Source: Candidatus Fermentibacterota bacterium
GTDB lineage: Bacteria; JAFGKV01
Length of the DNA stretch: 9,117 nucleotides
Reading direction: 5' to 3'
Assembly: GCA_016928395.1 (NCBI GenBank)
Contig: JAFGKV010000055.1
Span: 1 to 9,117 of the forward strand
Shown here: positions 3,249-8,577 of the stretch, piece after piece
Position numbering within the stretch: the stretch's first letter is position 1
Layout: each line of letters starts with the position of its first letter
Notes under the pieces: model-generated
What the model saw: the letters and a program-made list of their open reading frames with translations, nothing else
Told to the model about the DNA's origin: nothing
The model's database searches: none
Position numbers and translations under genes: made by a program

Positions 3249-5588
3249 CTACGGCACGATGATCAGGGGAGCTCCGACATGGGCCGAGGAACCTTCCGCC
3301 CGGACCTGCAGGTAGTACATGCCTGCCGGGGGTCTCATCCCCGGGCCGTTCATCGGGATCGGAACTTGATGCACTCCCCCCGGGAGCCGGTGGAAAGACG
3401 CGCCTACCTCGCGGCCGCCCAGGTCGAACAACCGGAGGCTGATGAGCTGGGCGCCGGGATCCTCTGAACGAATGCTGAACGAAGCGCTGGCCCTCGTTGA
3501 AGCCGGGTTGGGGCTGAGCCAGAGGAGCCTGAGCGCAGCGGGCCCGACTATGCCTCCTTCCCAGGAATCGGCGGCGACTGCATCCGCCCACGCGTACATC
3601 AGGTCACCCCGGGTCTCGTCATAGTAGATCACATGGGGGCGACCCATAGTATCCACCACCAGCCGTGACCACTCCCCAACCCTACCTTCGCTGGCGATGG
3701 TCGACGAATGCCAGGTTCCGTCGTCACGATAGGCGAACCGCAAATCGACTGCCTGGCCATACAGGTAGCTCACGCAGGGCCGCCCTTCGGGATCGATGGC
3801 CAACGACGTAAACTTGCCGACATCACTTTGCGAATCCACCGTTTCCACGTGCCATCCCTGGGCATCCTTGTACGCGTAGCGAATATCGTCGGGGAAGTTG
3901 TCGAAGTAGGTCATGTGAGGGAATCCGGCCTCGTCCAGTGCCAAAGAACAGTACATCCCTCCCTCGCCGTAGTTGTCGGCGACCTCCGTATGCCAGCCGG
4001 AACCATCCTGATATGTGTAGCACATCCGATCGGCCCACGAATGGTGGGCAATATGGGGATAACCTGCCGTGTCAAGCTTGAGGCTCGTGTAGAACCCCTG
4101 ATCCGGCGTCACCGTCTCGACCATCCAGCCCGAATCGGCATTGACGGCATACATGAGTTCGCGGTTGACCCGATAGGCCATGCGCACGATTCCGTCAGTA
4201 CCCACGGCGATGGAGGTATACCCGCCACCCGTCCAAAGATCCGGTTGGACCGTCTCCATATGCCAGCCGGAATCGTCCATGAACGAATAGCATACGGCAT
4301 CGGCCTCGTCGTCGTAGAAGCCGATATGCGGGTATCCCAGCGGATCAAGGGCCATGGAAAGATCGATGCCGACCTGTCCCACGGCCTGTACATCCCACCC
4401 GTCACCAGTCTGCACCGCGCAGCGAATGTCTCCACCCTCAGCATTCCCATAGCAGGCGTGGAGTAGACCGCTGGAGTCCATGGAAAAGGCCGTGTAGATC
4501 CCCACAACCTCGGCCTGGGATACCGTGTCCGTCGTCCACACCCCCTGAGCCTTCGCGGACAGCCGCAACTCCCGGATCCCGCCGAACGGCTCATCCACAT
4601 GGTAGCTGAAGAACACACCGCCTGCATCGTCAATAGCCAGGGACGCGTAGTCTGCCGCCCCGGCGAGCGTTTCCTCAACCCAGGTCGAGCCATCATGATA
4701 GGCATGCACCGGCCCGCTGGTCGTGCAGAAACCGATATGGGGCAACCCCTGTGCGTCCAGGGCCAATGATGTCCAGTCGCCACCCCGACCCAACGGGTCG
4801 ATCTGCCAGCCGGCAGGATCCTTGCGGGCATACACGACGCTGTACTGCCAGCCGTCATAGTAGCTGATGTGGGGCCGGCCCGTGTCATCAATGGCGATGG
4901 ATGAGTGCCACCCCACGTTGCCCTGCTCCGCAATGGTTTCCGTGTGCCAACCTTCGCCGTCCTTGAAGGAGTAGAGCAGATTGTCGAGAATCATCTCGTA
5001 GTGGCTGATGTGGGGCCTCCCGTCCCCGTCCAAAGCCAGGGAAGAAAAGCCTCCCGGCGCGTAGTGCACGTCGATGACCTCGATCTGCCACCCGTCGTCG
5101 TTCTTCCAAGCATAGTTGAGATCCTCTTCCTGATAGGTAACGTGGGGGCGGCCCTGAACATCGAGGACTATCGAAGTGAACTTCCCACCGGTGCCGACCA
5201 CCTCAATCTGCCACCCCGCGCCCTCGTATCGCGCGTATCGAAGGTTCTGGTTCAGATCGTCGAAGTAGGCGATGTGCAGAGACCCATCCGTGCCGGCTGC
5301 AATGGAGGCGTGCTCTCCGACGCCCGGCGAAGGATCCACGGTTTCCACGACCCACTCGGTGCCGTTTAGCCACCCGTGGTAGAGGTGATCCTGCCCGAAG
5401 GCAAGGTGGGGATTCCCCTGGGCATCCAGACACAGGCTGCGGTCGGTCATCCAGCTAAACACCCGGGGAGACTCCACCGGCTCGATCTGCCAGGAACGGG
5501 GTTGCGCAGCGCATGGGCTCAAGCTCGCCGCCATCAGGAACAAGGCTGCGAACAGTGAGTACGGGGCGAAACGGAAAAGACGTGACAA
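3249..5588 (-). CDS. large secreted repeat protein (about 14 propeller-like repeats) with C-terminal sorting domain
   Basis: This is a 779-residue exported protein. It starts at TTG (5586-5588), supported by GGAGG five bases upstream (complement of 5594-5598) and by an immediate signal peptide (MSRLFRFAPYSLFAALFLMAASLSPCAA, cleavage near residue 28; Pro before Cys26 argues against a lipobox). From about residue 32 to 690 I count about 14 degenerate units of 42-52 residues with the pattern (T/S)S-(L/I)-A-(L/I)-D-x-x-G-x-PH(I/V)-x-Y-x-D ... (L/V)-x-YA-x-x-D-x-x-GWxxExV. Each could be a four-stranded blade, so one or two beta-propellers are likely. The last 85 or so residues (LSPNPASTRAS ... PPAGMYYLQV) form a type IX/FlgD-like sorting tail. 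It is probably exposed on or released from the cell surface. I cannot tell a ligand or enzymatic role. The gene is convergent with the DUF1295 gene, leaving 20 bp between the two stops. Confidence 0.85.
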   Translation of the reverse strand: MSRLFRFAPYSLFAALFLMAASLSPCAAQPRSWQIEPVESPRVFSWMTDRSLCLDAQGNPHLAFGQDHLYHGWLNGTEWVVETVDPSPGVGEHASIAAGTDGSLHIAYFDDLNQNLRYARYEGAGWQIEVVGTGGKFTSIVLDVQGRPHVTYQEEDLNYAWKNDDGWQIEVIDVHYAPGGFSSLALDGDGRPHISHYEMILDNLLYSFKDGEGWHTETIAEQGNVGWHSSIAIDDTGRPHISYYDGWQYSVVYARKDPAGWQIDPLGRGGDWTSLALDAQGLPHIGFCTTSGPVHAYHDGSTWVEETLAGAADYASLAIDDAGGVFFSYHVDEPFGGIRELRLSAKAQGVWTTDTVSQAEVVGIYTAFSMDSSGLLHACYGNAEGGDIRCAVQTGDGWDVQAVGQVGIDLSMALDPLGYPHIGFYDDEADAVCYSFMDDSGWHMETVQPDLWTGGGYTSIAVGTDGIVRMAYRVNRELMYAVNADSGWMVETVTPDQGFYTSLKLDTAGYPHIAHHSWADRMCYTYQDGSGWHTEVADNYGEGGMYCSLALDEAGFPHMTYFDNFPDDIRYAYKDAQGWHVETVDSQSDVGKFTSLAIDPEGRPCVSYLYGQAVDLRFAYRDDGTWHSSTIASEGRVGEWSRLVVDTMGRPHVIYYDETRGDLMYAWADAVAADSWEGGIVGPAALRLLWLSPNPASTRASASFSIRSEDPGAQLISLRLFDLGGREVGASFHRLPGGVHQVPIPMNGPGMRPPAGMYYLQVRAEGSSAHVGAPLIIVP

Positions 5589-5998: not shown

Positions 5999-6736
5999 TC
6001 AGACGATCCACCTCCTCTGAATGTTCCGCAGGCTGATGAGAAACAGGAGGACGCAGAAGCCCGCCAGAATGGCCAGGTTGAGGGTCACGGGCCGCTGCGT
6101 TGTCCCGTTCACCGCGCCATGGAGGGCATCGGCGCCGTAGGTCAGCGGCAGCAGGTACGACAGTGGGCGCAGGAATACTGGGAGCTTCGTGACCGGGTAG
6201 AACAACCCGCACAAAAACACCATGGGGAAGCGGAAGAAGTTCGAGAACGTCTGTGCCTCGAACACTTCGCTGACCGACACGGCGATGAAGAGGCCCAGAA
6301 AGGTCGAGCTGACGGCAATCAAGGCAACGGCCGCTCCCATCTGCCACCAGATCATGCCTCCCAAGTCGACAATGAACGAGGCCATGATCACCGGGACAAA
6401 CGCATTGACGATGCCGAACACCACCGCGCCCGAGGTCTTGGCAAGCATAAGCACCCACAGGGGGATCGGTGCCAGGAGCAAGCGCTCAAACGACCGGCCT
6501 TTCCGCTCGAACGTGACCGTCACGGCCAGCATGGACGTGGTGCCAAATAGGATCGAGAGGGCCATGACCCCAGGCAGGATCGATCGGGCTTCGCCGAACC
6601 CCGAGCCCGACTTGATGAAGAACATCAGAGTCCACGCCAGGGGGAAGATGATGCCCCAGCTCAGGTTCGGCGGCTTGAGGTAGTACGTGCGCATATCCTT
6701 CCGGAGGATGCTCCAGAACGCGATCCAGGCCCTCAC
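5999..6736 (-). CDS. ABC-2 type transporter permease
   Basis: This is a 245-residue integral membrane protein, a usual length for a single-domain ABC-2 exporter permease. It starts at a GTG (6734-6736) that overlaps the ATPase stop as GTGA, which implies translational coupling. After a short cytoplasmic N-terminus (MRAWIAFWSILRKDMRTYYLKPP) I see about six hydrophobic segments. The FERKGRSFERLLLAPIP motif between segments 2 and 3 is the typical ABC-2 coupling-helix region, and the family block GLFYPVTKLPVFLRPLSYLLPLTY begins near residue 177. It should form the membrane pore with the ATPase encoded just upstream. The family exports drugs, lipids, polysaccharides or other small molecules; nothing here fixes the substrate. 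It is the last gene of the operon, and low-complexity DNA follows the stop. Confidence 0.9.
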   Translation of the reverse strand: MRAWIAFWSILRKDMRTYYLKPPNLSWGIIFPLAWTLMFFIKSGSGFGEARSILPGVMALSILFGTTSMLAVTVTFERKGRSFERLLLAPIPLWVLMLAKTSGAVVFGIVNAFVPVIMASFIVDLGGMIWWQMGAAVALIAVSSTFLGLFIAVSVSEVFEAQTFSNFFRFPMVFLCGLFYPVTKLPVFLRPLSYLLPLTYGADALHGAVNGTTQRPVTLNLAILAGFCVLLFLISLRNIQRRWIV

Positions 6737-7767
6737 GAACCCCCTCCCTTCGGCCCGCGTTCCTTCTCCCGGCGCATCTGTTCCGCGGCGATGCCCGTGA
6801 CTCGCACAAACACGTCTTCCAGGGAAGGACGAATGGCCTTTGCTTCGGTGACATCAACTCCGCGATCTTCGAAGAATCGGACCACCGGCGCCAGAGCCAG
6901 GGTCTCGCGAGTATGGGCGCGAAGTGCAGCGCCTCCGGCGGATTCAAACTCGACGCCGGGGAAAGCCTCGCGCAGCGGTCCCATAAACTCCATCAGGACT
7001 TGAGGCCCCAAGCCTTCCAAAGCCCGGCTCAGCGCCAACTCGATCACCCGTTGCCCCTGCACGTCTCGGATGAGGTGTGCCAGGGTGTCCACCTGGGCCA
7101 GCTTCCCTCCGACGATAAAGGCGATACGGTCGCAGAGTCGCTCCGCCTCCTCGATGTAGTGGGTAGTAAGAAAGACCGTCGTCCCCGCCTTGTTCAGGCC
7201 GGAGAGCAACTGCCGGATCTGTCGAGCGCTGGCCACATCGATGCCGGTCGTCGGTTCGTCAAGGAAGAGAATCTGCGGGCGGTGGATGAGACCGGCGGCA
7301 ATGGTGAGTTTCCGCTTCATTCCGCGGGAGTAGCCGGCGAACTTGCGGTGCGCCGCATCAGCCAGGCCGAATGTATCCAGCAGCTCGCGGGCACGGGCCG
7401 CGCGCTCATGCCCGCGCATACCGTAGAGAGCCCCGCAGAAGCAGAGGTTGTCAAAGCCGCTGAGTTCGGGCCAGAGATTGCTCTCATCGGGTACGACCCC
7501 CATGAGATGCTGGGCTTTCTTGACGTCAGACGTGTACTCCCGACCCAGAAACCTGATGGTCCCCGCATCGGGCCGGGCCAGGCCGGTGAGCATGTTGATG
7601 GTCGTTGTCTTCCCCGCACCATTGGGACCGAGGAAGCCGAACACCTCGCCCTCCCGCACATCGAAATCAACACCTGCAACGGCCTCGATGTCACCGAAGC
7701 GCTTGACGAGACCGCGCGCCTCAATGGCGACCATGTCGCCCGGCGCCTCCCGATCAACCCGCAGCAT
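6733..7767 (-). CDS. ABC transporter ATP-binding protein
   Basis: This is a 344-residue ATPase that pairs with the next gene. Visible motifs are Walker A GPNGAGKTT (47-55), ABC signature YSRGMKRKL (146-154), Walker B ILFLDEPTTGID (166-177), and H-loop TTHYIEEAE with His203. The segment that normally carries the Q-loop Gln reads VVPDESNLWPELSG, with Asp94 in that place. A CxC (C109, C111) follows in NLCFCGALYG. Residues about 230-325 form an accessory C-terminal domain of the type seen in DrrA/YbhF-like exporters. The ATG at 7767 overlaps the upstream gene by 14 nt and has a GGGAGAG just before it. An internal ATG at codon 12 (MVAIEARGL) is a possible alternative, since the domain proper begins there. 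The gene ends in a 4-nt overlap with the permease. It should power export from the cytoplasm. Confidence 0.93.
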   Translation of the reverse strand: MLRVDREAPGDMVAIEARGLVKRFGDIEAVAGVDFDVREGEVFGFLGPNGAGKTTTINMLTGLARPDAGTIRFLGREYTSDVKKAQHLMGVVPDESNLWPELSGFDNLCFCGALYGMRGHERAARARELLDTFGLADAAHRKFAGYSRGMKRKLTIAAGLIHRPQILFLDEPTTGIDVASARQIRQLLSGLNKAGTTVFLTTHYIEEAERLCDRIAFIVGGKLAQVDTLAHLIRDVQGQRVIELALSRALEGLGPQVLMEFMGPLREAFPGVEFESAGGAALRAHTRETLALAPVVRFFEDRGVDVTEAKAIRPSLEDVFVRVTGIAAEQMRREKERGPKGGGS

Positions 7768-8038
7768 GTCTCTCCCGGGACAGCCTGTGGGTCACCACCC
7801 CATGCGGACAGGTGACGTCGAAGCCGTCCTTCGTCTCCCACTCCATCTTGTCGGTCAGCGCCAGGGCCAGCTTCATGGCAGCGATGGCCCCCACTGCCTG
7901 AAAGCACATGCTCTTGCCTTCAGGCGTACGCGGGCCCAGCATGAAAACCTCGCCGCGCACGGTCTTGGCCAGTCCCAGGCAGATGCCTGACTCGGTCTTC
8001 ACGTGAATGGCCTCACAGCGAATCTGGTTGTAGGTCAT
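7754..8038 (-). CDS. small four-cysteine protein resembling the TIGR04076 group
   Basis: This 94-residue protein has no signal peptide or membrane segment. It carries cysteines at 8, 20, 45 and 77, with a central helix-like segment (MCFQAVGAIAAMKLALALTDKMEW) and a C-terminal CPHGVVTHRLSRE. The order Gly-Glu-x-F, PEG, a helix around a Cys, then C-P-x-G-(x)n-RL resembles TIGR04076 proteins, which often end in CPDG.RPV.F.LER. That match is from memory and is only moderate. The role is unknown, and the cysteines suggest metal or thiol chemistry. It lies between the Cys-rich mini-protein (24-bp gap) and the ABC ATPase (14-nt overlap), so it is almost certainly co-expressed. Upstream of the ATG there is a GGGGAGGAG, but it is about 12 nt away, so translation may rely partly on coupling. 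A stop at 7754 well inside the next frame supports a real overlap. Confidence 0.7.
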   Translation of the reverse strand: MTYNQIRCEAIHVKTESGICLGLAKTVRGEVFMLGPRTPEGKSMCFQAVGAIAAMKLALALTDKMEWETKDGFDVTCPHGVVTHRLSRERHAAG

Positions 8039-8062: not shown

Positions 8063-8221
8063 TCACGCGTAGCCTTCGTGGCTCACCTGCCGGCCCATGC
8101 ACGGATGGTGCTGGGCAGTGCCGTGGCATTTCTCGATCTGCTCGGGGGCACACTCCTCAGGCGTGTCTTTCAGGTTCTCTGGCTTCTGGCAGCCCTGGTT
8201 CTTCTCGTTACAGCAGCACAT
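8063..8221 (-). CDS. 52-residue Cys/His-rich mini-protein, candidate metal- or thiol-binding
   Basis: This short gene is easily missed. Its ATG (8219-8221) has AAAGGAG seven bases upstream, and the frame runs 52 codons to a TGA at 8063-8065. The product starts MCCCNEKNQGCQKPENLK, continues through DTPEECAPEQIEKCHG and HHPC, and ends GYA. Cysteines are at 2, 3, 4, 11, 24, 32 and 41, and histidines at 33, 38, 39 and 48. The block PENLK-x-x-PEECxPEQIxKCHG-x(n)-HPC looks like a conserved small-protein motif that I recall from other bacterial genomes beside ArsR-type regulators; I cannot name a family. It has no signal peptide, so it is probably cytoplasmic. The first 52 nt overlap the end of the ArsR gene in another frame, and the next gene starts 24 bp downstream. 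Metal binding, as a chaperone, buffer or sensor partner, is an inference from composition and context. Confidence 0.75.
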   Translation of the reverse strand: MCCCNEKNQGCQKPENLKDTPEECAPEQIEKCHGTAQHHPCMGRQVSHEGYA

Positions 8222-8532
8222 GGGAGTGCTCCTTTCGTGTCCGCGCCGGCCTCCGGTGAGTCCAGCAGCTCATCAATCACCTCTCGCCATGCGGCGAGAG
8301 TCTCCTGGTTCAGGCGATAGTGCGTGAAGTAGCCGTGCTTCTCATCAACGACCAGCCCGGCGTCGCGCATGATGCGTAGGTGTTGCGACACCGCGCCCTG
8401 CGTCACGCCAAGCCGGGCGGCCAGCGCGTTCACGCAGAGCGGTCGCTCCTTGAGGAGCTGCACGATCCGGACTCGCGCGTCGGCCGACAGCACCTTCATC
8501 AGTCTCGCGAGGTCTCTTGCAGTATTCACCAT
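8170..8532 (-). CDS. ArsR-family winged-helix transcriptional repressor
   Basis: This is a 120-residue regulator, the usual size for the family. The ATG at 8532 is preferred: a GGAG lies six bases upstream and a promoter directly before that, whereas an in-frame TTG at 8577 lies inside the -35 box. Residues about 7-90 form the winged helix: LMKVLSADARVRIVQLL, then CVNALAARLGVTQGAVSQHLRIMRDAGLV as the helix-turn-helix, then EKHGYFTHYRLN as the wing. The classical metal site ELCVCD is here PLCVNA, so only Cys33 of the CxC remains. The only other cysteine is Cys105, in the tail. The last 17 codons and the stop overlap the mini-protein gene and are basic and low in complexity. As first gene of the operon it probably represses its own promoter and the transporter until a ligand binds. 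The ligand could be a metal(loid), a thiol-reactive compound or something else. Confidence 0.9.
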   Translation of the reverse strand: MVNTARDLARLMKVLSADARVRIVQLLKERPLCVNALAARLGVTQGAVSQHLRIMRDAGLVVDEKHGYFTHYRLNQETLAAWREVIDELLDSPEAGADTKGALPCAAVTRRTRAARSQRT

Positions 8533-8550
8533 TTTAGTCTCCGCTAATAT
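8531..8550. promoter_or_regulatory. imperfect dyad over the ArsR start, candidate autoregulatory operator
   Basis: ATTTTAG (8531-8537) and CTAATAT (8544-8550) form arms separated by 6 bp with one mismatch. The dyad covers the start codon, the Shine-Dalgarno (complement of 8539-8542) and the edge of the -10. ArsR repressors usually bind such AT-rich dyads over their own promoter. The assignment is an inference. Confidence 0.4.
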
Positions 8551-8577
8551 ACTATCATACCCGCGGGTGGAAGTCAA
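8549..8577 (-). promoter_or_regulatory. sigma70-type promoter of the ArsR-ABC operon
   Basis: On the minus strand TTGACT (complement of 8572-8577) is followed after exactly 17 bp by TAGTAT (complement of 8549-8554), matching 5/6 and 4/6 of the consensus. A start about seven bases further on leaves a leader of only about 10 nt before the ATG at 8532. No other promoter of similar quality was seen in the operon, so it probably drives all five genes. Confidence 0.65.

Follow-up and report, generated by a model that had tools for sequence, protein, structure and literature searches.

A conserved small Cys/His-rich protein family encoded out of frame across the end of arsR, a candidate metal- or metalloid-binding accessory

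The window analysed here, a stretch of 9,117 nucleotides from a Candidatus Fermentibacterota bacterium, contains an arsR gene and, across its end, a short reading frame rich in cysteine and histidine, of a kind that is readily overlooked in annotation. Is this short frame a gene and, if so, what could its product do next to an ArsR-type repressor? An earlier note on this DNA had claimed a frame of 52 residues with seven cysteines and four histidines, an AAAGGAG seven bases before its ATG, and an out-of-frame overlap of 52 nt with arsR. Each of these is present at the locus (Table 1): the frame runs on the reverse strand from 8221 to 8063 and shares nucleotides 8170-8221 with the segment coding for the C-terminal tail of ArsR. 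Its product is MCCCNEKNQGCQKPENLKDTPEECAPEQIEKCHGTAQHHPCMGRQVSHEGYA, in which the cysteines occupy positions 2, 3, 4, 11, 24, 32 and 41 and the histidines positions 33, 38, 39 and 48.

Table 1 Features of the arsR operon in the window, listed from promoter to permease.
Feature	Position	Strand	Remarks
Predicted sigma-70-like promoter TTGACT-17-TAGTAT	8549..8577	-	TTGAC conserved in relatives; operator covers -10
Putative operator ATAGTATATTAGCGGAGACTAA	8534..8555	-	Conserved upstream of arsR in 26/27 aligned loci
arsR, ArsR/SmtB-family repressor, 120 aa from ATG at 8532	8170..8532	-	HTH_5 (PF01022) 1.9e-16; NF033788 82 bits
Shine-Dalgarno AAAGGAG inside arsR coding sequence	8229..8235	-	7 nt 5' of small-gene ATG; same position in homologues
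Small Cys/His protein gene, 52 aa	8063..8221	-	Under purifying selection; frame kept in ~50 loci
94-aa conserved protein, next gene of operon	7754..8038	-	No family match; same place in L080, L081, L102
ABC transporter ATP-binding subunit (DrrA-like)	6733..7767	-	Family-profile matches
ABC-2 type permease subunit (DrrB-like)	5999..6736	-	Family-profile matches

Judged by comparison across genomes, the short frame is a real gene: it has homologues, its frame is conserved and it is under purifying selection. It is more than a chance ORF because a genome of the same genus (G001) carries a relative with an E-value of 4e-13 in a protein search, and Planctomycetota carry homologues with E-values of 1e-17 to 1e-21. 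A search of the host genome found one copy of the family. A protein search of a Sedimentisphaerales MAG gave two relatives, one of them frameshifted; this second copy lies around position 5427 of locus L081, the same locus as L006/L009. About 3% of the sampled Planctomycetota are carriers, and the figures vary with the sample drawn: 12 of 294 genomes with a single sequence as query (one of them, at E=0.009, no credible member), 11 of 392 with a 40-row profile, and 23 of 397 in one class scanned with a 15-row profile. Nine more carriers, each from another family and related to the host only at the domain level, came from a scan of 290 genomes spread around it. The second match of genome G784 (L143) was excluded as apparently fortuitous or decayed. 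No relatives were found in plasmid, phage and viral collections.

The core of the family can be described as C-x12-C-x7-CH-x5-H-x-C. In the 40-row alignment, C11, C24, C32 and C41 are invariant, and P14, L17, P21, E27, Q28, H33, G34, H39 and P40 are conserved at 90% or more. Exceptions exist beyond this alignment, such as L100, which reads HPA; across the family, the four cysteines are near-invariant and H33 and H39 nearly so. The Cys/His motif put forward in the earlier note thus stands for the four spaced cysteines, the CH and the HPC, while its N-terminal MCCC is variable, relatives beginning with MC, MCEE, MSENKG and similar. Six loci (L070, L071, L073, L086, L088 and L095) have two tandem copies of the core inside a single ORF of about 78-83 aa. 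The protein of the congener G001 (L080) keeps the four core cysteines and carries the replacements H33R, H39Y, C2R and C4G, which may reflect relaxed constraint in that lineage or a different ligand. In three homologues, an in-frame TGA was considered as a selenocysteine codon and rejected, the TGA being the terminal stop.

The pattern of substitutions also speaks for a gene. Among 38 gap-free cores, nucleotide diversity at the three codon positions is about 0.25, 0.21 and 0.50, respectively, and dN is lower than dS in all close pairs listed (for example, 0.055/0.28 and 0.078/0.48). Between the host gene and that of its congener, dN is 0.23 and dS is 0.88, with the changes spread over the codon positions as 7/8/9. 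Within the stretch shared with arsR, taken from 22 loci, diversity amounts to 0.37, 0.20 and 0.50 at small-frame positions 1, 2 and 3. The third position of the small frame, which is the most diverse, is the second position of arsR; therefore, within the overlap, the small frame is more constrained than the arsR tail. By these measures, the small frame is under purifying selection at the amino acid level, overlap included. A frame that was not conserved, or not under selection, had been named beforehand as what would count against the gene; what was found is a conserved frame with third-position bias and dN/dS below 1.

Homologues with the same cysteine spacing beside ArsR genes, which the earlier note had named as possible support, occur across phyla: arsR is directly upstream of the small gene in 37 of the 50 scorable loci. 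Profiles made from the neighbouring genes served to map 43 loci (the host locus, L005 and L067-L107); L094 and L107 start at a contig edge and were left out of the scoring of upstream genes. Of the 41 loci scored, all in the set from Planctomycetota and the host phylum, 28 carry a co-directional arsR immediately upstream, twelve have none, and in L074 the ABC pair lies between arsR and the small gene. In 22 loci of this set, the stop codon of arsR lies 43 to 58 nt into the small gene, mostly at 52 or 49, and the relative frame is always the same. The overlap reaches 103 nt in L082, and in other loci it is 11 nt or absent. All nine loci that come from neither the sampled Planctomycetota nor the host phylum have arsR directly upstream; the spacing there ranges from an overlap of 55 nt to a gap of 69 nt. 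Nearly all homologues have a purine-rich Shine-Dalgarno sequence of their own. In L075, which lacks arsR, inspection shows a gene for a PadR-type regulator 15 nt before the small gene. Two other loci without arsR, L091 and L092, lie near genes judged by eye to be zinc-type ABC permeases and Mrp/NifX/NifU-like genes, a context that suggests a wider metal-handling role of the family.

The region upstream of arsR is also conserved. In 26 of 27 aligned loci, TTGAC is followed by the family consensus WTAGTATATTAGCGGATACTAA, a sequence that spans the -10 element and has TTAGTAT/ATACTAA as an inverted repeat. With three mismatches or fewer allowed, the putative operator occurs once in the host genome and twice in G003, one copy per family locus. 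This agrees with an operon that is dedicated and autoregulated. A distance of 16 nt separates the predicted -10 from the arsR ATG. The arsR mRNA may thus be nearly leaderless or be translated from a very short leader; the Shine-Dalgarno sequence of the small gene, in contrast, is strong.

The genes that follow point to export in many of the loci. An ABC ATPase, usually together with an ABC-2 permease, is found downstream in about half of them, and four of the nine distant loci are among these. The host ATPase scores 286.5 bits against TIGR01188 (drrA), below the cutoff of 312.45, and the permease matches ABC-2 families. Furthermore, a DsrE-like protein that carries a CxxC-type segment is encoded downstream in L005, L083, L085 and L094, a class I methyltransferase in L073, L082, L085, L086, L095 and L107, and an ArsP_1-like permease is present at L090 and L101. 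The 94-aa protein of the host operon has conserved cysteines at C8, C20, C45 and C77. Elsewhere in the window, 230-2335 of the forward strand encodes an Omp28-related protein whose C-terminus is FlgD_ig/Por-secretion-tail-like, and 3249-5588 of the reverse strand has a weak sorting-domain match.

The small protein had no match in Pfam, NCBIfam, PHROG or PDB sequences, where weak PHROG and Pfam lines had E-values above 0.1 and involved one member each. Forty members had no match to Pfam metallothioneins at E<=1, five members had none in NCBIfam, and no PDB chain was found at E<=10. The ArsD family models did not match the small protein, which at 52 aa is far below the length of ArsD. In the papers searched, the motif strings tried were not found, and no such arsR neighbour was recognised in the titles and abstracts listed by topic searches. 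The AlphaFold models of the small protein (pLDDT 56.5, from a two-sequence alignment) and of the 94-aa neighbour (pLDDT 35.7) were too low in confidence for a fold search. The overlapping arsR product passes the curated cutoff for winged-helix ArsR proteins (NF033788, 82 bits against 55). The host ArsR has a single cysteine, in LCVNAL, and nearly all its counterparts read LCV[NG]xL with one cysteine. Two types of known ArsR metal site, the alpha-3 CxC (ELCVCDL) and the alpha-5 DxH...HxxE, were not seen in these ArsRs by inspection.

Since the gene lies behind an ArsR-type repressor, and often before an export pump, its product probably binds a metal or metalloid for a resistance operon. We favour, with moderate confidence, a small cytosolic protein of an ArsR-autoregulated operon that would serve as a metal- or metalloid-binding accessory, as a buffer or chaperone, for an exporter or enzyme. 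In this operon, arsR and the small gene would come first, followed by a gene for the 94-aa protein, a DsrE-like protein or a methyltransferase, and then by those for the ABC ATPase and the ABC permease. ArsR would leave the operator over the -10 in response to a soft, thiophilic metal or metalloid, or to a conjugate of one, and arsR and the small gene would then be translated from one message. Translation of the small gene may be coupled to that of arsR or start internally, because its own Shine-Dalgarno sequence lies inside the arsR tail. The protein would fold around the four near-invariant cysteines, with the histidines of CH and H-x-C, and bind the ion, which it would then buffer or pass on to the product of a downstream gene, exporter or enzyme, in the manner of SmtA with SmtB or of ArsD with ArsA. 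In favour of this reading we count the spread of the family across phyla, the conservation of its core, the selection, the arsR linkage, the promoter and operator, and the ABC, ArsP_1, DsrE and methyltransferase partners. Against it, we count the lack of a sequence link to metal-binding families, the low-confidence structure model, an ArsR with neither CxC nor an obvious alpha-5 His site, the hydrophobic cargo typical of DrrAB-like exporters, the histidine losses in G001 and the twelve loci without ArsR.

By analogy, a close counterpart is the SmtB-SmtA system of Synechococcus, in which an ArsR/SmtB-family repressor also adjoins a soluble Cys/His-rich protein of ~55 aa, but the present family is separate. 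Its core has four spaced cysteines and not a dense CxC array, with no Pfam match in 40 members. Moreover, the smtB-smtA gene pair is divergent, whereas the pair described here is co-directional, often overlapping and frequently coupled to an ABC exporter. ArsD of the ars operons resembles the small protein in having cysteines, a small size and a gene that directly follows arsR in an operon for export, with a possible hand-over to an ATPase. However, ArsD has ~120 aa, a thioredoxin-like fold and CC pairs, and the pump downstream here is an ABC-2 exporter and not ArsAB. The ATPase and permease have family matches to the DrrAB-type ABC-2 exporters, the cargo of which usually consists of hydrophobic compounds; in contrast, the present pair would be under ArsR control with a Cys-rich partner, and its ATPase falls short of the TIGR01188 cutoff. 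AzuR-NmtA is a further system of an ArsR-family repressor and a bacterial metallothionein (PMC8790569).

The small protein could instead be a regulatory partner that binds ArsR or its ligand, as a co-sensor, anti-repressor or ligand donor, with the overlapping translation setting the ratio of the two. This is possible, although we consider it rather unlikely. No element of the loci is as constant as the pair of ArsR and the small protein, which is kept without nearby ABC genes in L141 and L145-L148, the LCV[NG] cysteine is the only obvious ligand in ArsR, and in L075 the PadR-type regulator takes the place of ArsR. However, twelve loci lack an adjoining ArsR, adjacency and co-regulation do not amount to physical interaction, and the tandem duplication of the core (L070, L071, L073 and others) better fits added binding capacity. 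A sensor role is conceivable because ArsR has this single cysteine and no evident alpha-5 site. In one form of this reading, an undescribed family, the genes of which run over the arsR stop in another frame in many bacteria, would be a separate metal- or metalloid-sensing or ligand-delivery subunit for an ArsR lacking a canonical site, the two controlling a DrrAB-like exporter; we regard this as doubtful.

A relay of sulfur or thiols, in which the small protein would carry a persulfide or thiol adduct, and no metal, between the DsrE-like protein or methyltransferase and the exporter, is improbable. It would account for these partners in some loci, but most loci, and the window too, lack their genes, and four equally invariant cysteines with two histidines resemble a metal site and not a single reactive thiol. 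Very improbable is a cysteine-sensing leader peptide, the translation of which, and not the product, would control the downstream genes. The Cys-rich N-terminus and the upstream position in the operon would suit it; however, amino acid selection extends to the C-terminal HPC, MCCC is not conserved, the sole terminator-like site of the region is on the other strand, and the small gene is also found in unrelated contexts. Finally, a spurious frame kept merely through the conservation of arsR, which the 52-nt overlap and the small share of carriers (about 3% of sampled genomes) might suggest, is refuted by homologues without overlap or without arsR, by selection by codon position (two thirds of the gene lie outside arsR and are conserved) and by the small frame being the constrained one inside the overlap.

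The small gene adds to the ArsR/SmtB world a conserved small-protein family that is absent from the family databases searched. Its Cys4/His2 motif and the 22-bp putative operator are handles for finding and testing other such operons. The locus also offers a well-supported, conserved case of overlapping genes on the same strand, with the stronger constraint on the short frame instead of the long one. Should the small protein indeed supply ArsR with a ligand, it would show how sensing is possible for an ArsR that has no canonical metal site.
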